The notes beneath the pieces are model-generated. The model saw only the letters and a list, made by a program, of their open reading frames with translations. It was not told the DNA's origin and did no database searches. Positions 1-53,402 of a stretch of DNA of 64,000 nucleotides are shown here, piece after piece. A program made the translations under genes and the position numbers. Source of the DNA: Phlegmacium glaucopus (taxonomy: Eukaryota > Basidiomycota > Agaricomycetes > Agaricales > Cortinariaceae); the NCBI GenBank assembly GCA_015039465.1, contig MU130698.1:112317-176316 (forward strand), written 5' to 3'. How positions within the stretch are numbered: position 1 is the stretch's first letter; the number at the start of each line of letters is the position of its first letter.

Positions 1-131
1 CGTGTTAGTAACCGTTAGTGATGTTGTTATCGTCAACTAAGGGTGTGATTACGACTTTTAGGTTGGTGTTGAATTCATTCGTGTTAGTGGTCGTTAACGA
101 CGTTACCATCACGAGTCAAGGGTGTGATAAC
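1..131. repeat. 79-bp imperfect direct repeat inside the mirror block
   Basis: Two diverged copies start at 1 and at 80, both beginning CGTGTTAGT and containing AAGGGTGTGAT. In the right-to-left reading they lie downstream of the WD40 frame. A third partial copy appears at 2319-2350 (it shares CTTAAGTTGT) only if the block is turned back in place. Confidence 0.6.
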
Positions 132-549
132 GAGTTAGACTATTTCTTGGAGTACAGAGTTATGACTCCCAACAAATTACCAGGATATAAGAAGGTTAAA
201 CTTTCTGTTTCCTGATCTGACGAAAGTTTTATCCATCCCGGTTCTGTAACAAGATGTTTCTGACCAATGTCAAAGACTATAAAAACGTCACGATATCTGG
301 TCTGGAAGTTCGTGATGACTTATAGATGTAGTTTTTAAAGTGTGATACTCACTACGAAACCATTGTAGTACAGTGGTCAAATACGTTAATGTTATGGAAA
401 GTATGATTTAAAACGATTGATGTAACTAGAAACAGAATGTCAGAATACAAGGTCTAGGTAGAGAAAAGTCAGGAAACGTCTTGTAATACAATAACACTTT
501 TCCTTGGTATGGGTATGGGACGGTATTCAAACTCTTCGATTGTAACTTT

Positions 550-2318
550 GATACAAACTCTCTTTTGTAACTCATTACTTTGACACCTCATCTTATATTC
601 CCGGTATGTATGAAGATTCTCGTTTTAAAGAGGAGACTGTATAGGTTCCGTATAAAATCTGTTCACCATCGACTGTCTACAACCTAATACCTTACCACCA
701 CCTTGGACCTAAAATAGAAAGTACCGCACCTTATAACACGAAACTATATACAGTTCCTTACTATTGACATTACAACCTGTCTCATCCGGTACTCGTACTA
801 CCGCCTATATTTATGGTAGTCCATAACTACTACTTGGTCCATTAACTGATAATAGTCTATATCTATCTTGTCTGTATACAGGTAAGTCGAGACGGAGTGT
901 GAGAGGACACCGACATAAGGTCTAGGAACGTCAGAATAGTATTCTACGTCTGTGTTATACGTATGGTAGTCCTCTCTTCTGTCGTCTCAACTGGGTTACA
1001 CTTACAGGGAAGTCGAGACGGAGTGTGAGAGGACACCGACATAAGGTCTAGGAACGTCACAATAGTAGTCTACGTCTGTGTTATACGTATGGTAGTCCTC
1101 TCTTCTGTCGTCTCAACTGGGTTTCACTTACAGGAGAGTCGAGACGGAGTGTGAGAGGACACCGACATAAGGTCTAGGAACGTCACGGTAGATTTCTACG
1201 TCTGTGTTATACGTATGGTAGTCCTCTCTTCTGTCGTCTGAACTGGGATTTACTTACAGGAAAGTCGAGACGGAGTGTGAGAGGACACCGACATAAGGTC
1301 TAGGAACGTCACAATAGTAGTCTACGTCTGTGTTACACGTATGGTAGTCCTCTCTTCTGTCGTCTCAACTGTGTTAAACTTACAGGAAGATCGAGACGGA
1401 GTGTGAGAGGACACCGACATAAGGTCTAGGAACGTCACAATAGTAGTCTACGTCTGTGTTATACGTATGGTAGTCCTCTCTTCTGTCGTCTCAACTGGGT
1501 TAAACTTACAGGAAAGTCGAGACGGAGTGTGAGAGGACACCGACATAAGGTCTAGGAACGTCATAATAGTAGTCTACGTCTGTGTTATACGTATGGTAGT
1601 CCTCTCTTCTGTCGTCTCAACTGGGCTAAACTTACAGGAAAGTCGAGACGGAGTGTGAGAGGACACCGACATAAGGTCTAGGAACGTCACAATAGTATTC
1701 TACGTCTGTGTTATACGTATGGTAGTCCTCTCTTCTGTCGTCGCAACTGGGTTAAACTTACAGGAAAGTCGAGACGGAGTGTGAGAGGACACCGACATAA
1801 GGTCTAGGAACGTCACAATAGTAGTCTACGTCTGTGTTATACGTATGGTAGTCCTCTCTTCTGTCGTCTCCACTGTGACAGGCTTACAGGAACGTCGAGA
1901 CGGAGTGTGAGAGGACACCGACATAAGGTCTAGGAACGTTACAGTAGTAGTCTACGTCTGTGTTATACGTATGGTAGTCCTCTCTTCTGTCGTCTAAACT
2001 GGGTTAAACTTACAGGAAAGTCGAGACGGAGTGTGAGAGGACACCGACATAAGGTCTGGGAACGTCACACTAGTAGTCTACGTCTGTTTTATACGTATGG
2101 TAGTCCTCTCTTCTGTCGTCTCTTCTGGTCTCCTACTTACGGGAGAGTTGAGACGGAGTGTGAGAGGACACCGACATAAGGTCTAGGAACGTCACAATAG
2201 TAATCTACGTCTGTGTTATACGTATGGTAGTCCTCTCTTCTGTCGTCTCTTCTGGGTTAAACATACAGGAAAGTCGAGACGGAGTGTGAGAGGACACCGA
2301 CATAAGGTCTAGGAACGT
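550..2318. other. WD40-repeat protein, C-terminal part, readable only right to left
   Basis: Read from 2318 down to 550 without complementing, the frame encodes tandem 42-residue WD40 units. Each has a GH dipeptide, then VFSPDG, then IVSASDDNTARIW, then a linker NTATGECEAEL. After the last unit an open tail of about 110 residues runs to a TAG at 552-550. The frame has no stop from about 2120 to 550. One unit (about 2122-2147) has an extra base, so the gene is frameshifted there or carries a sequencing error. The N-terminal part lies beyond the window once the block is restored. WD40 arrays of this kind form beta-propellers that bind ligands; in fungi, highly identical arrays are typical of STAND/NLR-type proteins with NACHT or NB-ARC domains. 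No such domain is in the window, so that link is inference. Confidence 0.9.
886..2318. repeat. 126-bp tandem repeat, 11 full units plus a partial
   Basis: Units begin at 886, 1012, 1138, 1264, 1390, 1516, 1642, 1768, 1894, 2020, 2147 and 2273. The period is exactly 126 except for the 2020-2147 unit, which is 127. Units are nearly identical. Differences cluster in two places that, in the mirror reading, fall just after the GH dipeptide and inside the S-x-D-x-T turn of the WD40 unit. Confidence 0.95.
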
Positions 2319-2679
2319 GAGATTGCTTAAGTTGTTGGACTTTCTTAACCTTAGATTAATCTGTTGCTAGTGACTGACAGCAGGAACAAGAACTATACCA
2401 TCCAGGTTGAGCAAACCAAGGACTATGTAGTTATGCACAGTATAAATTGTTGTATGTGTTAATAGACTAGATGGTTATTCTAGCAATTATGACAACCAAA
2501 GAGAAATTGGACTAGTCCTTATGTTAGAATGTCTCCCTGTGTTTGTTTAGGGAAGGCTTAAGATGAGACTTGTAACACACAAAGATAGAGGAGAGAGTAG
2601 AGGATGATAAAGAGAGAGTCTTTAGATAAAGGCTATAGCAGAGGACAGACAGATGGTGACTGAAACAGACAGAAAAATG
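2319..2679. other. Non-coding stretch after the mirror junction
   Basis: No credible frame on either strand. The first about 30 bases resemble the reversed sequence of bases 1-80. The rest is AT-rich with purine-rich GAGAGAG runs near 2585-2620. Dinucleotide balance is normal for the window. Confidence 0.5.
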
Positions 2680-3270
2680 TGAACTTAGAAGGGGAATTCC
2701 AGTGAACTCCAGTGGAAAGATGACTGTAAGAGACTACAATGTGAGTTGGAGGGAACTTCCCATCCTAAATACAAGTGGGCAGTATTTTATACTGTACCAC
2801 TTTGATTAGTTTGTGTCTGTCATGCATCACAGAACCTTTGGTCATGAACAAAATTGTGTGTTTGTCCCTGGTCACATTGGGAGTGGCTGATGGTTGAAAA
2901 CCATTCTCAAAAAACCTCAAAAACCAAATACAAATTAAGTATTTTTAGGGTTGCTATGCCCTTGGATGGAGATACAAAATTGTCCACAGGTCACACCCAA
3001 GACAAACTAATCAAAATGGTACATTACTCCAAGGGTGAGGGCTATGTGAACAATAAACAATAAGCAAAATATGTGCTGTCAAAGGAAGAAAGATGGAGAA
3101 ATGACAGCTGCAAGAAGCAAAGAACAATGGGAGAGGGAAGACAATAATAAAAATTAGTAAGATGACAAAGTGCAAAAGAAAAGGGATAAAGGTAGTAAAT
3201 ATCATTCAATAGCAAAATAAATCCAGCTCCATTCCTGTGGACATGTCAAAAATGTAAAGGGGTGAGAAGG
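2680..3270 (+). repeat. Dispersed repeat, copy A
   Basis: Closely matches 16660-17215 in the same orientation, including the stretch around CAGTGGAAAGATG, the CATTACAGAACC/CATCACAGAACC region and the end near GGACATGTCAAAAATGTAAA. The short frame starting at 2854 is present in both copies ([16 protein letters not shown]) but diverges soon after, so I treat it as part of the repeat and not as a gene. Confidence 0.8.
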
Positions 3271-3281
3271 TTTGAATATAC

Positions 3282-3440
3282 TGTTAAGTTTAAACAAAGG
3301 GATAACGTCGGAGTAACTCCGGAACAGACGGAATGGAACTGGAACAAGTAACGGAAAGGACTTTGGCCTCAGCATATGTGCTGTGCCGCCCAGCTCCTAT
3401 AGTGTCTTGATTTCAGAACTGGAAGAGAAAGGAATAAGAC
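3282..3440 (+). repeat. Fragment of the same LTR family as the solo LTR at 10178
   Basis: Begins TGTTAAGTT like the LTR at 10178 and shares the GCCTCAGC-TATGTGCTGTGC segment and short purine-rich motifs. I could not find a matching TAACA end or a target duplication, so this is a truncated or diverged copy. Confidence 0.5.
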
Positions 3441-8357: not shown

Positions 8358-8536
8358 TTTAGTTAGTCACAAGATATTTACAACATTTGTATGCAGAATC
8401 TACTCACAATGGAAAGTTACTGAGTTGAGCAGAGATCCATCTTCAGGAAGATGGGGGCATGAGCATGACAAGGGTGGCCCAAGTTCATAGTAGGTGGGAG
8501 GTCAGGCTTCAGGCGTTGATGAAGAACCCTCAATCG

Positions 8537-9192
8537 CTTAGCTAGGGTAACCCAAGACTAAGCAGCTGAGAGCAAATGAAGGGAAGTGGGTGGAAGTGGG
8601 AAGCGGGTTCAAATTGAGCGTCGTCGGAGGGTTTGTGAAAGAGATCATAATAATGTGTGAGAGATCACTGATAGAGTTTCAATAATCACTTAGCTAGGGT
8701 TACCCAAGACTAAGCGATGATCGATGAGAGTGTAGTGGGAGAAGTAAGCGGGAGAAGTAAGCGGGTTGGAAATTGAGTGTTGCCTTGTTTGGCAAAACAC
8801 TTAGTTATCAACTTCTTGTTTGGCGTAACACTTAATTTTCAACCCACTTCTAACTCCGACTTATCCACTCTCTTCCCTTCCACTCATCGACACCACTTAG
8901 ACATGGGTAACCCTAGCTAAGTGACAACACAACCCACAGGGACGCTTCAATTTCCAACCCGCTTCCAACTCTCGTCTACTCTCGTCGCTTAGTCTTGGGT
9001 CACCCTAGCTAAGCGACAAAGTTTTTAATCTGCTCCCTTCGTCTACTCTCACTTAGTCTTGGGTCACCCTAGCTAAGTGATTGAGACTTCGTCAACGCTC
9101 GGTCTCTCATACAACACAACGGTCTCAATTTCCAACCTGCTTCCCACTTTCCTTTGCCTACTCTTAGTCGCTTAGTCTGGGTCACCCTAGCT
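8537..9192. repeat. Cluster of six 26-bp imperfect palindromes
   Basis: Copies at 8537-8562, 8689-8714, 8896-8921, 8988-9013, 9052-9077 and 9171-9192 (last one truncated). Each starts CTTAG and ends CTAAG around a GGGT-ACCC centre, so each can form a hairpin. The first two read CTTAGCTAGGGT and the last four read CTTAGTCTTGGGT or a variant, so the two groups are in opposite orientation. Spacers share words such as TTCCAACCC and CTACTCTC. No gene in 8358-9399. Confidence 0.75.
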
Positions 9193-9399
9193 GACCGGTT
9201 CCTTCGTCTCTCACAATCGCAATCTTTAGTCCTAAATAATTGACTAGACTTAATTCTATTCCCATTGTTTTCGAACCATCCTAACAGCTACGATTTCCCA
9301 AATAAATCTGTTTTAATCAATCTTGGGTCACCCTTGTTGATTTCATTGCTTACTTTACGCTCTCCAACCGAACGATTCTACACAAGAATCTACACAAGA

Positions 9400-12300
9400 A
9401 TGCCACTCAACGCTTCCTTCTCTTGTTTCATTACAACTGACAAGGACTCTGACTTGGATCGCTCTCGCGGTCGTGTCCAGTTAATTGAAGGCAATTTTTT
9501 CTATTCCCCCAATTCAAGGCGTGATGTCCAACTTCCACCAGTCTATGATGAGATTCCATATTGTGATTGCTTTAAGCACGGTTTTGCGGAATTTTGCCAA
9601 CCGCTTTGGTGGCAACCCGCTTGCCCTTACCTCGCCTTCCTGCCTCTTCGACCAGTCTTTGCTGGTGTACCATTCCAGGACCTTTTCCATATATCCTATT
9701 TTCCTCGGCTTTGCTATGGAGGTTTTATGATCAATCCACAAACAATTTTAGGGTGGGCGCGCCTTGAAAAGGATATACGAGACGCCGTGGAGCTGCTTTT
9801 GACCCATGAGCGTGCGCCACCAATAATGTGGATAGTGCCAACGTCAATAAGTTGTACAGGCGCATTTAGGCGAGTCCACGACCTTCACACTCACTTTATG
9901 CATTCCAGGGAATGGTTTTCCCAATTCATGGGTGGCTTTTCCTATGCCACTGCAGTCAGCATAACGCTCAATCATGACAATCTTCACCAAGGGGTGCCAC
10001 ACTGGTTTTCTATCCTCAGATCTGGCTGTCAGGAGTAATGTTGTCAATTGTGGCTACCTTCGATTCATCTGTCAATCGAGCCGGCATTTTCATTCAGTTG
10101 CACCAACGTCACCGAGACCAGTTTTCCATTGACTGGCTATGTGATTTTGCTGTACCTGTATGGTATCCTTGGGGCAGTGTTAAGTTCGAGAACTCTGTTC
10201 CAGAGTTTTGGATGGAGTAATGGATGGAGTCACAGAACGGAGTCACAGAAAGGATAGGACTTAGCCTCAGCTTATGTGCTGTGCTACCCAGAACCTTCGT
10301 GTCCTAGATTTTGGAGTAAGACGGAGTGGAGTGGAACCGGGAGTTGCAAAGAACTTAGAGGAAGACCAAGAGTGGGAAACTAAGTCGATATTCGAACTGA
10401 GGAAAACATACAAGATTCGGGTACTTAAATAATAAAAGAAATAGCAACCGAAATATAGAATATAAATATAAGTGCTGCGTACTGCTCCCGGAAGGTCCTG
10501 CATTCTTGGGGTGAATAATCCATAGCTTGTGTGCTGACTGATGGTGGGAAAGTGATGACAAAGAAATAGTGGTTGTGACGAAGATGTGGAAATGAGTTTG
10601 GAGTAACGTCGGAAGAGCCGGAATGATATGGAGAAGTCTCGGAGTTGGACGTAGGAGGAGTAGAACCAGAAACAAGGGAAGGTACTGGAATGGAGTACGG
10701 ACTTCCGGAGACAACTCCGATGGAGCTGGACCGGAGTAACATATAACGGATTGTAACAGGCAGCCAAGAAACCAAAGCATCTCTGACTGATCCTCACCTT
10801 GTTTGTTTTGCACCTTTGCCACACCAGCTACAAGAGGTTGGTACTTTCTTAACAAGGAGCCCAACCCCACAGCCACAGCCACAACCAACCCCAGAGCCCC
10901 AGACCCAGGCCTTTGATTGTAAGCTATTTTTATGTTATCTCCTAATATATACTTATTTTTATTTAGGTGCTGCGAGCTCTGCTATAATCCCTTCCTGGAA
11001 GGCCTTTTTTGAAAAGCGCCAAGCACGAAATGAGCATCTGAAGGCCCGAGAGACAGATAAACAACGACAGTCTCGGGAGAGTCGCGAAAAGAATCCCCCC
11101 GTCAAACGTACAAAGGTTTTCCTATGGAAGCGAATTGAAGGTGGCGGCTACCGTCGGGAGAGCTTTTACCAAGCAGAAAACGGAATGCATCTGGACGCAT
11201 ATAACAAGCGTCAGAAAATATATGATGCCTTCTCAAATGAATGGGACTGCTGTTCAGAATTTGGAGAACCGTCTCAAGGTGATTTCGCGGACGACAATGA
11301 CATTGACGACAACTATCCCATGATGCCTCCCCCCTCGACTTCAGTAGACCAGGCATTGAGGCCTGGTTCCCCACCCCCGGAACCCTCAACACCTACTCTT
11401 GATCATCTGGCCCCTGCTGTGGATGACAGGTCCTTCCATGTTGTTTGTCCAGTGGAAATACCCTTCGATTGGGAGGATTTTAAAACCTCCCAGCTCTTGT
11501 ATGAGATTTATGGCTTCATTGGACCTCTTCCTCTTCCCACCCATCCTTCTTCCATTGATAAAGCTGGGCGCAGCCTCCTTTTGACAATTGTTGGACTGCG
11601 GAGGGACGATTCTGAAAATTTTAAATCCCCCGTTGCGTCTTTTGCCCTCCAATTCTTGAACTTCCTCAATGACTTCAAGACCCCCAAGAATACAACTTGG
11701 GATATTGCGGATGGAAACCGAATGTCAATTTCTGGCTCAAAGCTTTTTCGTCAAATGTATGTAATCAAACATATGGGCGAAGACGGTCATGAAGAAAGGT
11801 GGCATGTATTTGACTTCAAGGAGGCAGCAACAGTGCCCTGGAAGGTAGCAGTCCCCAATGTCATCGATGCCTTCTATGTGTGTCGGTTAGATCACACAGG
11901 AGGACTGCAGCTCACTGACTTCGAAGTTGCTCGAGAGCTGCTGAACCGTGGTGTCCAATTCTGCACATTTCTTCCTGTCAAGCCCTTGCCATGTTCTATT
12001 ACCCCTGCAATCACCGTTCCAGTTCATCTATCCAACTACAAATTCACCCAAAACAATTATTTTGCATACAAACAACAATGTGCTGCCCTCCTCAGTGACC
12101 CTGGCGTAGCTCGGTCTGCATTGTTACACGGTGGGATCGTTTGGCGTCTTGCTGTTGCAACATTAAGCTTTGATGATGTCCTTGAAGGACCGACAACTGC
12201 TGCCACCCTACAGCGTTGTGGCATTGTTACTAACACAAGTGACAGTTCAACCCTGTGTGATGACGGACTGAGTCAACTTGAGCTTGATATCATTTGTGGT

Positions 12301-16039: not shown

Positions 16040-16659
16040 TTAATGTCAGGATCCTATTTTTCTTTCCATCCCCCAAAATATACCCACAATGTTGTAATTA
16101 TTGTACGTATAGAAGTCCAAGTACCCCAATCCAGTGAAAATAAAAAGGATCGGCCATTTGGCGTGTTGTATTCTTCTAGTTTTTCATTCTTCTTGTTTCA
16201 TCTGTTGACTTGTCATACAGAATGGAACCCTTTCTGTTTGTCATCGAAATACATGTGGTTCTTTTATGTTGAGTTTAAAACCTGAAGTTACTGGTTAGAG
16301 CTCACTAAATTATACATTTTAACCCCCATGACCGTGTGCGTGACCCTACCAGCCATTCTTGCCAATGCCTTCAAAGCCGTTGCAGAGCAACCTTCCTACT
16401 ATGTTCCAGACTATGTTCCGGCCAGCGTGGCCCAGATTACTCATGACTGTTGGTAACATTGGAGAATGACTCACACCATACAAAGATTTTGATACCTTCC
16501 TTAAGTCGACACGGTGGCTTCACGTGGCAAGAAGTTCATCAAGATGCCCACCCCTGGGAATTTGGTGATTCTGGATCGGTTGTAGAGATGGATAAAGACG
16601 AGGAACCGATGGATCACATCCTTTTACAGTACGGACGAAGGCTTGACCTTAGAAGAAGA
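16040..16659. other. Intergenic, with a short coding-like fragment
   Basis: From ATG 16329 to TAA near 16455 there is a frame of about 42 codons with balanced codon use (VAEQPSYYVPDYVPASVAQ) that looks like an exon remnant of an unidentified gene. Around 16500-16640 another coding-like stretch ([20 protein letters not shown]) runs into the dispersed repeat. Confidence 0.35.
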
Positions 16660-17215
16660 ATTCCAGTGAATTCCAGTGGAAAGATGGCTGTAAGAGATTA
16701 CAATGTGAATTGGAGGGAACTTCCCATCCTAGGTACAAGTGGGCAGTATCTATATTGTACCACTTTGATTAGTTTGTGTCTGTCATGCATTACAGAACCT
16801 TTGGTCATGGACAAAATTGTGTGTTTGTCCCTGGTCACATTGGGAGTGGCTGATGGTTGAAAACCATTCTCAAAAAACCTTAAAAAACAAAATTCAAATT
16901 GAGTATTTTTGGGATATGTCACAGGTCACTATGCCATTGGATGGAGATACAAATTTGTCCACAGGTCACACCCCAGACAAACTAATCAAAATAGTACATT
17001 ATTTCAAGGATGAAGCTATGTGAACAAAGCAAAATATGTGCTGTCAAAGGAAGGAAGGACAGCTACAAGCACAGAAAAATGGGAGAGAAGGGAAGACAAT
17101 AATAAAAATTATTAAGATGACAAAGTGCAAGAGAAAAGGGAGAAGGTAGTAAATATCATCCAATAGAAAAATAAATCCAGCTCCATTCCTGTGGACATGT
17201 CAAAAATGTAAAAGG
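16660..17215 (+). repeat. Dispersed repeat, copy B
   Basis: Partner of 2680-3270 in the same orientation with small indels. The frame at 16817 parallels that at 2854 and diverges after about 20 codons. Confidence 0.8.
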
Positions 17216-20170
17216 TCCTGTGTCAACATTTGAGATGCACAGCCTTGTTCCCATAAAACTTCTGTATGTTCATGATCCCATGTTGTGCAGCCTTGATAAC
17301 ACACTTGACATACTGTAAGAATAGACCTCTCCTGCTGATTCATCCACACCTTCTGCTTGGCCATGATCCTTCTGGACTTCCTATGAGACAGTGGATGACT
17401 TCCTGTAGGAATCTGAAATTTCAAACTGGTATCAAATTCCAGCTTAAATTAGATAGCTTAGATTGAGAATCATTTGAAACCCAGTCTGCATCCTGTGGAC
17501 ATGCAAATTCCAGGTTTTTTTTCATATCAGATTGTGTTTATGTCATCAAAGACCGTCATCAATCTTGGATTATTTGCACTGTCAATAATTTCAAATTCAT
17601 TATATCACATGTAACATACACGGAATTTCATACCACGTTACAATTTTCCAAATTCATACATTTCCTATTTTATCAATTTCAAATCCATTCCCCTTTTGGA
17701 AATTACTCCAAAATTACATATTCTATTCTTACATACTAATTTGCTACCTCCCCATTTTTATTCTCAGATCTAAGATTCCCTTTTATCCATTTTCAAAACA
17801 TAGTACTACAAACCAAAGGTATAAAAACCTGTAGCTATATTGTAGTATAAAAACCAACAAAAACATAACAAATAACTCAGAAACTAAGAAATTTGATAGC
17901 CAAGCACTAAAATAATAAAACAATCAACACATTTGGAGCACTAGAGTTGACAGAGTCAACTCCCCCCCTATATACTTGCACACCCGGAAACTATTCCTCA
18001 CACTGCTGTTTTACCTCATTATTGTTTCTGAATGTCAGGACAATTGGTGATTGGCTGGATGATGGTTATCAGCATATCCTCTGGTAAATGCAATGGAGGG
18101 AGTCAATTAGCAAGATGTTGAAGGTTCACAGCCCTGATTATTATCAGGCTTGTAACACCCAAATGAATCCATGAAGGTCCATAAACAGCAAAGCAGATAA
18201 TATAGGTGAGAGGACTGTTGGAAACAGCTGATCAACAACTAAACATGGATCTTGGTGGTACATATACCATTTATGGACCCAACATGACATCAAAATGCAT
18301 TTGAAATGCCCTGAAATGTTTGTAAGAGGATCCTGACCCTATTTCAGACCAAGCAATCTGAAATCATCTGAAATGCCCTCTCAATTTGAAATTATGTGTG
18401 ATAGGGGTACGGCATTGGGGCTGATGGGAATTTGGAACTATTTAGAATATCAAACTCATATCAAATCTCTATGGGAAGTCATCCAGTCTGTGAGATAAAT
18501 TCTGTGGGAAGTAGTAATGCCACAGTCCAACCTTGAACCAAAGTTTGAACCTGAGAACCAGACCAAAGGTTAGTTCAAAGTTCAGAGCATGGCTGAACTG
18601 AACCTGTTTTGAGGTTAAATGAGGCATAATTTGCATCAAGTGCCCATCCCTGTTATGAACTTTTTACTTTTTCTTTTTCCTTTCTTAACTCCACTGATAC
18701 ATGCTTTATACATACCTTTTCATCTCTGTCTACATGCCTTTACTTGTTATTGTTTCACTAACATGCATATGACTTATTGCATGAGTCATTTCTATATTTA
18801 CTCCTGACTCACTGTTTACATACAACTATGACTCACTCACATATGTGACTCCTCTTTTACTATAAATACTGTATTTACTCCTTTGTACATCATCTAGCTA
18901 GTTCTTGAGAATAGTACCCACTTTCTACTTGATCTCTCTCAAATTCTTAAGACAATACCAAGAGATGACCTCTTGGCACTCTTCTGAGCTCACTATATGA
19001 ACAAACCAATCTCTACATGACTGTTAAAGGTCAGAACACTTCTGAACCTTTTGAAGTTGTAACAATACCTGTTTTGAATGCCCACCCCCCATTTTCAAGA
19101 CCAACCACCACACAACTGCCTATTTTCAACACCAATTGCCCATTTTGATGCCCACTGCCTATTTTTAAGACCCAACTGCCTGTTTTTTCAACCCCATCTA
19201 CTCATCTAAACCCTAAACCCCTCTTGTGGGGGGAGGGTTGCTATTTAATTCTATCTCTTATGTATTACTCAATCTTATTTTATTTCATTCACATAATATG
19301 ACAGGCAGAGAAACCCCTCACAAGAGGGGATTTTACTTTTCATGGAGGTCTTTACACTAAGCCACTAATTGTTAGGGGACGCTAGCTATATTCAGTACTT
19401 TACCCTCCCCCACATATTCCAAGTGGGGTCCAAGCAGGTCTGAGCAATCCAACCAAATTCTGAGTAAATTCCAACCAAATTCCAACCAAGTTCTGACGTT
19501 ATTTAGGGTTAGGTTAAGGTTTGGTTAGAGTCTATTTAGGGTTAGGATTAAGGTTTATTTAAGAGGTTAGGGCAGTATATTGATCCTAGGTAGTTATAAT
19601 GAATTTGATGTAAAATTGGTCAGAATATGGTTGGATCCACTCGGATTCTGGTCAGATTCTGGTCAGATTCTGGTCAGACCTGCTCGGACCTGCTCAGAAT
19701 GTGTGGGGGAGAGTAAAGACCTCACTATAGTGGTCACTACTATTAGCTTAGAGAGCAGGTTATTGCCAGGAAAACAATAGATGGACCTAGGTAACTACCC
19801 CAGGTCCAGGTAATGACATGACAGTAAGTAAAAGTAAATGTAGGACACACCTTCCCTAAGGAACATGTGGTAAGTATCTACCCAGATGCACATTTACTAT
19901 TAAGGAATGTTTGTCAGTGACTACTAATAACTGTTTGTATGACTAAGGACAGGGGCAGGTGGAGTATGTAGTGGTAGGTAAGTACATACATAGTGTCCTC
20001 TTACACTAATTCCAATGGGAATCTGATCAGTCCAAGTAAAATTTTCCTAACTGGGATTTGGCTGCAGACTCACTTGGGCTGACATTTGGTTGGTGTTCCA
20101 GCAGTTTCAAATTTTGAGTCTGAGCTCAGTCCAAGTTCAATATTCTTGTCTTAGATTAGAAAGTCTTTGA
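17216..20170. other. Gene-poor AT-rich region
   Basis: No credible gene. Contains an inverted pair near 19205 and 19313 (CCCCTCTTGTGGGG and CACAAGAGGGG) around a 100-base loop, and the small inverted-repeat element at 19398-19718. Open frames here are short and low-complexity. Confidence 0.5.
19398..19718. mobile_element. Small inverted-repeat (MITE-like) element, 321 bp
   Basis: The left end CTTTACCCTCCCCCACA and the right end TGTGGGGGAGAGTAAAG are inverted copies. Further in, AAGCAGGTCTGAGC mirrors the GGACCTGCTCAGA region. The interior is rich in ATTCTGGTCAG and TTAGGGTTAGG-like words. A related right end (GGTGGGGGAGTGTAAAG) occurs at 20927-20943. No clear target duplication. Confidence 0.6.
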
Positions 20171-34296: not shown

Positions 34297-36117
34297 ATGT
34301 CTACGATGCCCGACGTGACTATTCCCCTACTGTCAGATATCCTACCGTCCTCTGTGCCTATGCTCGAAGCCGATGGAAATAACTGGGCGACGTTCTATGT
34401 TCATTTCCGAGGTGCTGTCGAGGCGAGAGGCTTTTGGAGCCATTTTGATGGGCCGTTGTCTGTCCCGGTACTGTCAACCGAGCCTACCGCAGCCGAGATC
34501 GCTGCAAAGGGTCAGTGGGATGGAAACGAGAGATTCGCGAAGACATTACTTACCCAGTGTTTGCCGGACTCGATCGTGATGGAGGTTTATTCCAAGGAAA
34601 CGGTGCGAGAGAGGTGGGAAGCTGTGGTGAAAGGGTATGGGGTCACAGGGGTGGTGTATGCAGAGACGGAGTGGAGGGCAAAGTTAGAGGCTGGCGACGA
34701 AGTGTTGATGGATGAGCCAAGATGGAAAGGCGGTAGAGACCAGGAGCAGGTTGAGTGTCGGGATTGTGGACAGATGGGGCACGTCAGGTTGAGGTGTTCA
34801 AGTCCAAGGAAATCCAGAAACGACTCACGGAATACTGCAGAAGAAAAGTCGAACCAAAGGATCGAAGGGCCATCTGAAACTGCGACTGAAGAAGCAAAGG
34901 GAGCGGAGGGTGTCGAGGAAGAGGTTGAAGTCGCCGAGGAGGAACCTAGGGACTGGTTTCAGGACGCAATCGACGAAATGATCAAAGAAAAAGACCTACC
35001 AACTGAATTTACGGGCAATGTTGAGGTAGATTCCAAGGTCTTGGATGACGAGGAATCCCGGGCGGCAGTGGAAGAGGTTGTTGGTGGTAGCTGTTTCCGA
35101 GTTGTCGAGAAGACGAGGGATTGGTTAGAAGAGGCGGTGGATGAAATGATAGCGGATGAAGAGAGATTGGCGAGGGAAGAAATGAGCAAAGAGGAGAGCC
35201 CGGTGGTCGTCAAGTTTTTTGGCAACAAGTCCAGAGATGCCTCCGCAGCGATGGAACCGAGAGTAAACGGCGAAATCGAAGAGCTCTGTGGCCCAAGACA
35301 TGCCAGTCATACATCTCATCATCAACATCACTGCATTAACCTCGAAGAAACTCCAGATGCGAAAGTGAAAGTCGACGAACGAAATGCCTATTTTGACAAT
35401 TCATCAGTACATTATTTCGAAGAGGAAGAAACAAAGACTTACGAGCTTCAAGATGAAACACCCGATGATATTCAAGTGGACGCACCAAATGGAAAGGACG
35501 AGGTTGTCCTTGGGAAGGAACCAGATAAGGTTGAGATTCGCGAGTGGGGAGAGCCTTGGACAAAGAGAGGCGCCACTGAACTAGGAGGAGAGGTTGACGA
35601 AGAGCCGAATGGTGTACAGATCCACTGGCTAGACACGAAGTGCATCGTTGTCAAACGAAATGGTTACCTTAACGCGATGGACATATTGGCGATGCTGGAG
35701 AATTGGAACATGGTGGACATACCTGAGGGGGAGCAAGTACAGGGGGTGAAATGGATTTTCTGGATGAAAACGGTCACGGCGGTCAGATATGAGGAACGGT
35801 TAGAGATTCGAGGAGCTTACAAAGTAGCTGGCGCTCGCGTTTTCGACACATACGCACCGGTGGGCCAGCAAACCTCAGTCAAGATAGCCATAGCGGCCGT
35901 CTGTCGACCTCAAAAAGGGATTTATTCGTCGACCCGAAAATACTCAATACGGCCAGCGATGCTCTGGAACGATGTGGTACCGAGTAACCAGGAGTTAGTT
36001 GAAAAGAAGATGGAGATGAAGACTGAAAAGGACGCACGAGTTGGATGTCGATGGAAGTTTGGAAGGGATGAAAGGATTTTTGGAATATGTTGCCGAGGAG
36101 AATTTCTTGGAGGGTGA
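34297..36117 (+). CDS. Gag with zinc knuckle fused to a reverse-transcriptase fragment, 606 aa
   Basis: Single exon, ATG 34297. Residues about 20-120 resemble the Copia Gag region (LEADGNNWATFYVHFRGAV, FAKTLLTQCLPDSI). A CCHC zinc knuckle follows (CRDCGQMGHVRLRC, residues about 153-166). A long acidic Glu-rich stretch comes next with a twofold repeated motif (DWFQDAIDEMIKE and DWLEEAVDEMIAD), and then the start of the Copia reverse-transcriptase domain (MVDIPEGEQVQGVKWIF, DTYAPVGQQTSVKIAIA). Protease, integrase and the catalytic YVDD part are absent. The frame has stayed open across several deletion joints, which may mean the product is still needed for packaging, or only that the element is young. 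Confidence 0.85.
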   Translation: MSTMPDVTIPLLSDILPSSVPMLEADGNNWATFYVHFRGAVEARGFWSHFDGPLSVPVLSTEPTAAEIAAKGQWDGNERFAKTLLTQCLPDSIVMEVYSKETVRERWEAVVKGYGVTGVVYAETEWRAKLEAGDEVLMDEPRWKGGRDQEQVECRDCGQMGHVRLRCSSPRKSRNDSRNTAEEKSNQRIEGPSETATEEAKGAEGVEEEVEVAEEEPRDWFQDAIDEMIKEKDLPTEFTGNVEVDSKVLDDEESRAAVEEVVGGSCFRVVEKTRDWLEEAVDEMIADEERLAREEMSKEESPVVVKFFGNKSRDASAAMEPRVNGEIEELCGPRHASHTSHHQHHCINLEETPDAKVKVDERNAYFDNSSVHYFEEEETKTYELQDETPDDIQVDAPNGKDEVVLGKEPDKVEIREWGEPWTKRGATELGGEVDEEPNGVQIHWLDTKCIVVKRNGYLNAMDILAMLENWNMVDIPEGEQVQGVKWIFWMKTVTAVRYEERLEIRGAYKVAGARVFDTYAPVGQQTSVKIAIAAVCRPQKGIYSSTRKYSIRPAMLWNDVVPSNQELVEKKMEMKTEKDARVGCRWKFGRDERIFGICCRGEFLGG

Positions 36118-42895: not shown

Positions 42896-43265
42896 CCCCT
42901 TGATCAAACAATTTTGTGCTGAGAGGGTGCATTAATGACTCATTAATGACTATAATACTTATTTCCCCTGGTCAAACATTTTTATACTGAGAGGGTGTAT
43001 CGGTGATGATATTACTTATTTCCCCTGGTCAAATATTTTTGTGCTGAGAAGGTGTATTGGTGATGATACTACTTATTTCCCCTGGTCAAATATTTTTGTG
43101 CTGAGAAGGTGTATTGGTGATGATACTACTTATTTCCCCTGGTCAAATATTTTTGTGCTGAGAAGGTGTATTGGTGATGATACTACTTATTTCCCCTGGT
43201 CAAATATTTTCATACTGAGAAGGTGTATCGGTGATAATACCACTCATTTCCTCTGATCAAATATT
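42896..43265. repeat. 57-bp tandem repeat, seven units
   Basis: CCCCTGGTCAAA or a variant starts at 42896, 42965, 43022, 43079, 43136, 43193 and 43250. Central units are identical; edge units are diverged. The period is a multiple of three, so an artificial frame of LRRCIGDDTTYFPWSNIFV units runs through it. Confidence 0.93.
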
Positions 43266-43439
43266 CTAGTGCCATGTCAGGGCTTACCCATATTATCGAG
43301 TTGATCAACTATCATCTATGATCTGGGACCGGAATTTCTCCTGTGGATTCCAAACACAATACTCACTGGCCAAAAAGAAAGAAAACTAAATAGTAGGTGA
43401 TATTTCAGGCTGACTGTAGCTACTATATATTAGTAGGTA

Positions 43440-45566: not shown

Positions 45567-47017
45567 TTGACTCAAATGCAGACATGTGAAGTCGCTGTGA
45601 ATAAGAAACGGAGGATGATGATGCAGGTGGCGAATAACATAAAGGAAGGCTTGAATGGCTGTGCGGCGTTCTTGGAGATAGACGTTGGAGGGATAAAGAC
45701 CTATGCGCACACGTTTGTGGTGGATTCGGCACCTTATTGTCTCCTACTTGGCAGGCCGTGGCAGAAAGGGGTCAGGCTGGGAAAGATCGAAAAGGATAAT
45801 GGAGAGGTGGATGTGGTAATAAGGGGGGATGAACAGAAGGAAGCAATGAAGGAAGTAAAGAAACGAGTAGCGGCATGTGCAGCAATTTGGCCAATCGATC
45901 ATTCTCAGCCTTACAACATCATTTCATCGGTTGATACTTCAGTTATCGCAGTTGGGTTTATCCTAGCACAGCTAGACGGGGAGGGATGGCGTAGGCCAGC
46001 CAGATTTGGGTCCATTGCCTGGGACAAACGAATCGCTCGATATTCGCAAGCTAAGCTAGAGCTTTACGGTCTTTTCCGAGCATTAAACGCCACAAAACTC
46101 TGGATAATAGGAGCAAAAAAGTTAGTTGTAGAGGTGGATGCGCAGTACACCAAGGGGATGTTGAACAAACCGGGAATGCCGCGTCGATGAACAGGCGGAT
46201 TCCAGCGATCTTGTTATTCGATTTTGAATTGGTCCATGTACCAGGGGCAAAACATAAAGGTCCAGATGGGTTATCAAGGCGTCGCAAAGGAGAAACTGAG
46301 GATTTAGAGGGAGAGGAAGAGGTGGAAGATTGGATAGATGAAGTACTGGGTTGTGGAGTTTGGATGGCCGGTGTAAGGGAACAAAGTGGAAGTGTTAAAG
46401 TTTTGAACACGGGTAGGACCTTGGAAGGCGACGAGGACGTCTCGATGAAAAAGAAAGGGGGAGAGGAAGGGTTTGACAGCTACTTGATGAGACAAGGAGA
46501 CAAGGAGACTAGGAGGGACGAAGAGCTAGGAAAAGTCAGAAAATTCCTGGAAACATTGAAGATTCCCGAAGGACTTACGGGGAAAGGGGAGAAAGCATTT
46601 ATCAAGCAGGCAGGAAGGTACTTTGTGAGCGGAGGAAGATTCTGGAGAAAGGATCATGGGGGACGACACCAACAGGTGGTTACAACCAAACAAGAATGTT
46701 ATCAATTGATTATCGGAGCACATGACCGATTAGGGCACAAGGGATTCTACGCAACGCACCGCACTCTGACAGACTGTTTTTGGTGGCCTAATATCAACAC
46801 AAACATCCGTTGGTTCATTACAACATGCCATCCATGTCAGATCCGTTCCTACGAAAATTTTGTCATTCCACCTACCGTCCAGAGTCCGGCCCCTCTGTTC
46901 CATAAAGCCCACGTCGATACCATGCACATGGTGTATACAATTTTTACAGCACCTGCAAATTGTAGTTGCCCCAACATGTTCAATCCACGACGGTTGTGCG
47001 CTTGCATACTCGCTTGA
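45567..47017 (+). pseudogene. Gypsy/Ty3 retrotransposon relic: protease tail, RNase H, integrase zinc finger
   Basis: The first frame (to 46190) begins inside the aspartic protease (VVDSAPYCLLLGRPWQ), passes directly to the lead of the RNase H domain (EQKEAMKEVKKRV, IISSVDTSVIAVGFILAQ, RYSQAKLELYGLFRAL) and stops at TGA 46188-46190. The whole reverse transcriptase is missing, yet the joint is in frame. A second frame from 46187 continues with RNase H end (FDFELVHVPGAKHKGPDGLSRR) and the HHCC integrase zinc finger (AHDRLGHKGFYATHRTL, TTCHPCQ), then HKAHVDTMHM, the start of the integrase core, and is cut at about 46990. No LTRs found. Confidence 0.88.
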
Positions 47018-52085: not shown

Positions 52086-52905
52086 ATGGTGAGTGATCAA
52101 CCCAAAATGAATCGCTATAACGCTCACCATAATTACATTCCGCTCTACTGCAGCCAACCCTCACAAACGCTGCCACAGGGTGATTCCGAAGTTGAACTTT
52201 CGGACTTCCCACCCATTAAAGAACGGAACAGCACACCTCCCATGTCTCCTGTTCCTGTTCATTCTCGTCCACTTCGTCCTAAGGCAGCTCCAGGAGGTTC
52301 ACAACAACTTCCTGTATCTAGCGAGGAAGAACCTCCTCGATCACAGCATCGTCGACAGCCAGGACTTGGACAAGCCAACATACTCAACATGGTTGATGCA
52401 GTTGCACCGGTACCGCATGCCAAGGTGACACCATATATTCTTTTCAGGTAGCCATGCTAATCGTGAATGTAAATTCCAGGGTGTTCGTTCTCATCCAGGA
52501 AAATCCCTGTTAAAGCACCAAGACTCTGGAATTCAGGATGCTGCTGACGAACACCCGTTGAAAAAACAGCGTCTTGCTTTGCGCGATGAAAACAACATGA
52601 AATGGGTGCGGCAAGAGATTGCTGGTGTTAAGGAGAGTCTTGAGAAGATTGCTGCCGAAGCAAGAGAGGATAGACGAGATATCAACAGTATAATTGCAAG
52701 AGCTTCTCTGCGAAATCCAACGAAAGCCGTGAACTTGTATATACCAAATCTGACGAAAGCCATGAGCCTGTACATATATACCAGATACCTAAATGTCGAA
52801 TTTTTATCAAGTCTATGCTTGCATCCTATTCACACACTGCTTACTACTGAGAGTCAACCTGCATCTGCTTGTATGCGTAGTTCTAGTTCCTTTACCTGTA
52901 TATAA
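52086..52905 (+). CDS. Companion protein of the transposon, basic with coiled coil
   Basis: ATG 52086 chosen provisionally; an upstream exon from about 52050 is possible. The exon ends at AAG near 52424 and a GT-AG intron runs to about 52480. The second exon starts GVRSHPGKSLLKHQDSG, then PLKKQRLALRDENNMKWVRQ and a charged helix (IAGVKESLEKIAAEAREDRR) that is likely a coiled coil, and ends at TAA 52903-52905. The first exon is Pro/Ser-rich with basic runs (HSRPLRPKAAP, RSQHRRQPG). It lies 0.3 kb after the transposase on the same strand, as second genes of CACTA-like elements often do. A DNA-binding or nuclear helper role is inference. Tail residues after about 52730 are repetitive and may be read-through. 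Confidence 0.55.
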
Positions 52906-53402
52906 ATTATCTATGTACTTAACAGTACTAATAAGGGATTTCGGAGATTAGCATGGGTTATACAAACTGATTACGTTCCGATATGCTCGCCCGCAGAAAC
53001 TTATTAGCGCTCGCCATATATACCAGCAGTTAGCGTGGGTTACACGACCTGATAAGGTGCTGATATGTCTGCCCGCAGAGACTGATCAGCACTTAGAAGA
53101 CCATCAGCTGCCGCAAGTGCCGATATGCTAATTGGCATTTTTCCGATACCTGTATATAAATTATCTATGTACTTAACAGTACTAATAAGGGATTTCAGAG
53201 ATTAGCATGGGTTATACAAACTGATTACATTCCGATATGCTCGCCCGCAGAAACTTATTAGCGCTCGCCATATATACCAGCAGTTAGCGTGGGTTACATG
53301 ACCTGATAAGGTGCTGATATGTCTGCCCGCAGAGACTGATCAGCACCTAGAAGACCATCAGCTGCCGCAAGTGCCGATATGCTAATTGACATTTTTCCGA
53401 CA
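52893..53402. repeat. 255-bp tandem duplication
   Basis: Copies at 52893-53147 and 53148-53402, nearly identical, starting ACCTGTATATAAATTATC. Inside, two related sub-blocks both carry GATATG-TC/GCCCGCAGA and AGCATGGGTTATAC / AGCGTGGGTTACAC. The first copy overlaps the end of the companion gene. Confidence 0.9.

Follow-up and report, generated by a model that had tools for sequence, protein, structure and literature searches.

The first 2,318 bases of the window (the whole stretch of 64,000 nucleotides analysed here) are mirror-image DNA, reversed without being complemented, and this block is an assembly artefact and no biological feature. Probably it is the extension of a sequence gap, written in the wrong sense by a gap-patching step of the assembly. 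The window corresponds to C240:112317-176316 in a genome of 60.5 Mb and 259 contigs from Phlegmacium glaucopus, an agaric of the Cortinariaceae also known as Cortinarius glaucopus. The block (window 1-2318) is the right-hand of two mirrored pieces around a run of Ns; both are reversed in place, as judged from their flanks and from an ordinary paralogue on the same contig.

Content of the Mirrored Block

A long WD40 frame is visible only when the block is read from right to left without complementing, as a first-pass annotation of the sequence had claimed. The frame spans window 553-2145, contains 531 codons and holds 10 WD40 stretches (PF00400, E 1.9e-121). A second WD40 profile, derived from 5 repeat units of the ordinary paralogue and distinct from the Pfam model, identifies 10 units in one of the reversed frames and 2 in another; it gives no match at E <= 10 in any of the six ordinary frames, in line with the annotation, which called both true strands non-coding. 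Tandem Repeats Finder reports 11.4 direct repeats of a 126-base unit at 877-2318 (93% matches), which are the mirrored 42-residue WD40 repeats. The dinucleotide content follows the same pattern: observed-to-expected CpG and GpC are 1.07 and 0.05 in the block versus 0.70 and 0.92 in the remaining window, confirming the contrast given in the annotation, and 0.06 and 1.11 in the part of the paralogue that aligns to the block. An Rfam search of the window returned no match.

The left end of the block (1-136) carries two mirrored copies of a 79-base unit, at 1-57 and 80-136, which in un-mirrored order lead into the sequence from 2319 onward. The continuity of this repeat after reversal in place had been proposed from the outset and is borne out, except that four bases, GAGA (2319-2322, forward strand), intervene. 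They have no counterpart in the paralogue and are either a scar of the junction or an ordinary small insertion. From 2323 to 3261 (forward strand) the flank is ordinary and collinear with C240:21716-22659 (94.7% in the ordinary sense). A further small mirrored patch, suspected by eye at about 3301-3360, does not hold up: 3327-3436 matches L004 in the ordinary sense, and no mirrored match was found.

A search with the protein of the reversed frame gave 7,180 matches, and none of the 120 listed is near-identical, so that no correctly written copy of the block's gene was found among them. The best of these 120 by rank is 48% identical, and identity among them peaks at 69% (with 60% of the query covered) and 60% (with 97% covered).

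Alignment to the Paralogue and Junctions

The contig carries a duplicate of the region in the ordinary sense, at about 12.1-22.7 kb. All 2,318 bases of the reversed block align to C240:19406-21715 with 94.5% identity and 3,607 bits. The other senses of the block reach at best 24.7 bits (printed), 28.3 bits (reverse-complemented) and 26.5 bits (complemented). An ordinary inversion, whether biological or made during assembly, resembles the present case in that a segment with collinear flanks runs the wrong way, but it yields the reverse complement, which here scores no more than 28.3 bits against the paralogue. The exclusion of a biological inversion in the first-pass annotation therefore holds.

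The arrangement on the contig continues beyond the window, in sequence that was not visible to the first-pass annotation. C240:108497-110318 matches the paralogue in the ordinary sense and is followed by the other mirrored piece (C240:110319-111256, 938 bases), which matches only when reversed (18124-19060, 97.2%). An N gap of 1,060 Ns (C240:111257-112316), ending at window base 0, separates this piece from the block of the window (C240:112317-114634), which again matches only when reversed, and the ordinary-sense match resumes at C240:114639. The counterpart of the 1,060-N gap in the paralogue is 345 bases long (19061-19405). Un-reversing each piece in place restores collinearity, base-exactly at the left junction and with four extra bases at the right. 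Of the block edges originally given as 1 and 2318, the right one is correct within four bases; the left one is the edge of the N gap, with a further 938 mirrored bases beyond it.

Both junctions lie outside the 126-base array, where register can fit by chance, and are therefore firm evidence of register. The frame upstream in the paralogue encodes NPHP3_N and NACHT, with the NACHT frame starting at about 17429; from these coordinates, the left junction (paralogue 18123) falls inside the NACHT frame.

In this comparison the un-mirrored pieces are 97.3 and 95.1% identical to the paralogue, and the ordinary flanks 96.1 and 96.5%. Such flank-like identity, together with the intact CpG, fits an alteration of a file later than the sequencing and does not fit DNA with a history of ageing in the cell. 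The printed block keeps its CpG and the ordinary copy has lost nearly all of it, which argues that the block has not aged in that sense in the cell. The ratio of transitions to transversions relative to the paralogue is 58:56 in the un-mirrored right piece, compared with 53:17 and 21:12 in the flanks; as a guess, variable WD40 positions may explain this balance. The data are printed letters only, and real mirror-image DNA, made in the cell by parallel-strand copying, would be printed in the same way. This explanation is barely credible: adjacency to an N gap, register in place and undepleted CpG in the printed sense all point to an error of text. We know of no replication, repair or recombination route that reverses DNA without complementing it.

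Mirrored Sequence Elsewhere in the Genome

The printed text of window 1-1500 gives 10 candidates in the genome, all scored, and locates mirrored WD40 text at 9 other places; its plain reversal gives 135 candidates, 40 of them scored. Window 2400-3200 belongs to a dispersed repeat family. The mirrored text of this repeat has 56 candidates, and all 40 that were scored match (rows counted by hand), with 646 first-look candidates, 40 scored, for the ordinary text. Two of the 40 mirrored copies, at C237, share one block, so that copies are not equivalent to blocks. A LINE-like stretch has 16 candidates in its ordinary text and 0 in its mirrored text, where an empty first-look answer alone proves nothing, and a gypsy-like integrase stretch, searched as ordinary text only, has 7.

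Thirteen loci were examined: that of the window, 8 of the 9 other WD40 places (C164:4442 was left out) and the loci of 4 of the 40 repeat copies. Mirrored sequence was found at all 12 loci other than the window's; these were picked by their match to a mirrored query and show the setting of the blocks, not the fraction of gaps affected. At 8 of the 13 loci the mirrored sequence terminates at an N gap (C240, on both sides, C75, C15, C44, C125, C133, C209 and C201). At the other 5 (C164, C237, C224 twice and C225) a mirrored stretch of about 1.1-5.1 kb lies between ordinary flanks without Ns. The mirrored stretch of C164 includes copies of other repeats that are present in the window in the ordinary sense. 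Gap edges in the ordinary sense also occur, at the C246 edge and on the far sides of the C75 and C209 gaps.

The register of these blocks has to be read with the possibility of chance fits in 126-base arrays, which limits the results for C224, C75 and C15. After un-reversing, the ordinary and mirrored parts join base-exactly in 3 of 8 references at C224:279.6 kb and in 1 of 8 at C75, and C15 misses register by about 10 bases. C224:293.1 kb fits to within 0 to 6 bases over its nearest 750 mirrored bases; the word model described below extends the block 2.5 kb further left, so that this locus is not simply explained by one reversal of the whole block.

These loci also bear on the suggestion, made in the first-pass annotation, that either corruption of a file or assembly or a deliberate change lies behind the block. 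Corruption of the assembly is favoured by the occurrence on other contigs, the N gaps and the reversal in place. A one-off deliberate change to the window does not fit, because the mirrored sequence continues past the window and recurs elsewhere. More broadly, the analysis rests on one copy of the sequence and not on the public FASTA, and a deliberate or accidental change confined to that copy, and absent from the public record, would look the same; it is nevertheless very improbable, given mirrored pieces on many contigs, at N gaps and in biologically exact positions.

Word-Model Segmentation

Mirrored stretches were also sought with a two-state model on six-base words (fifth order, strand-symmetric). 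L033, which itself contains mirrored text, was left out of the segmentation references. Of the 200-base bins, all 12 in the block and 51 of the 308 in the rest of the window favour the mirrored sense. Under cross-validation on the window, the mirrored call for the block covers 1-2669 (score -591) and so runs past the edge at 2318. Among 15 control loci, 13 are ordinary throughout, and L006 and L008 have a weak mirrored call at one end. The model missed a 290-base mirrored piece at C133 that is shown by alignment; at C44, the stretch adjacent to the gap is called by the model alone and the alignment starts 1.3 kb further in.

Three further calls in the window are weak (scores -27 to -34). Two of them contain ordinary-sense matches, 18848-20003 to the paralogue and 10229-10761 to a repeat. 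The third, 8466-9295, which recurs in full length at two other places, may be of either sense.

Other Features of the Window

Inverted repeats are abundant in the 830-base repeat at 8466-9295. It recurs in full length at C107:26675 and C32:53157, and C193 has a 222-base piece of it that is 99% identical. CpG is nearly absent from 16501-20000 (0 to 8 per 500 bases), which is printed in the ordinary sense; such depletion marks repeats here. At 42952-43272, 5.6 copies of a 57-base unit stand in tandem, and 52893-53400 holds a 254-base duplication with 98% matches. Remains of a Copia-type gag and RT lie at 34297-36117, with both Pfam matches below the cut-offs, and an integrase H2C2 domain at 46187-47017.

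Origin of the Mirrored Text

Mirrored sequence that either stands at N gaps or is closed within ordinary sequence is the expected appearance of gap extensions and gap closures written backwards. At the present locus, long reads would have extended both ends of a gap inside the repetitive NACHT-WD40 gene; the gap would have remained open, and the added sequence would have been emitted reversed and not complemented. A minus-strand fill that was complemented and not reversed would give identical letters, and the text cannot distinguish the two.

Published methods hint, more weakly, that the patching step could have been PBJelly applied to an ALLPATHS-LG assembly. One JGI paper, in which C. glaucopus is included, describes assembly of Illumina genomes with ALLPATHS-LG and, for hybrid ones, patching with PBJelly (PMC7550596). 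In the available part of another JGI paper with the same species, other tools are given and PBJelly is not among them (PMC8480192). PBJelly closes gaps, or extends their flanks and leaves a smaller gap, as stated in the part of its description available to us (English et al., 2012, PMC3504050). Both forms, closed gaps and gaps with extended flanks, are present in this genome; the difference is that the added sequence is mirrored here, a fault that goes unmentioned in the same part of that paper (PMC3504050). A search of open-licence literature, as far as its texts were available, found no description of such a backwards-fill fault.

Identical letters would also be expected if a scaffold-building or format step had complemented minus-oriented pieces without reversing them, or had reversed plus-oriented ones, and the mirroring is indeed piece by piece. 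Pieces joined as contigs should, however, have Ns on both sides, and here one side or both of the mirrored pieces run straight into ordinary sequence with no Ns between. We consider such a step unlikely, and gap extension by a patching step remains the preferred explanation of window 1-2318.

Implications for NACHT-WD40 Genes and Repeat Families

The un-mirrored text of the locus resembles fungal NACHT-WD40 (NLR-like) genes, in that it encodes WD40 repeats and the frame upstream in the paralogue encodes NPHP3_N and NACHT. It differs in being mirrored from inside the NACHT frame onward, which makes the gene unreadable at this locus. Among 120 listed relatives, all 8 with an organism name are from Phlegmacium glaucopus (69-82% identical). 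One NACHT-WD40 protein has at least 81 matches in the genome (60 scored of 1,314 candidates), indicating a very large NACHT family.

The interest of the finding lies in a genome-wide type of error that conceals real sequence from ordinary search. Mirrored text yields no genes, homologues or library repeats, and can pass as orphan sequence; a predicted receptor-like gene in the block of the window would go unseen in any ordinary search. Gene counts for the NACHT-WD40 family, estimates of repeat content, CpG statistics and claims that a sequence is species-specific would all be affected. Detection is cheap, either by comparing CpG with GpC beside gaps or by searching with the plain reversal. The ratios of mirrored to ordinary first-look candidates (56:646 for the dispersed repeat and 10:135 for WD40), which are rough candidate counts, suggest a hidden share of several per cent for such families in this genome. 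We tentatively raise a wider possibility, which we hold to be somewhat less probable than its opposite: that an unnoticed patching fault, which fills gaps with mirror-image sequence, spans this genome and other public assemblies from the same pipeline, and that several per cent of gap-prone repeat families, including NACHT-WD40 receptor-like genes, may exist in the databases only as mirrored DNA, unseen by ordinary search and legible on plain reversal.
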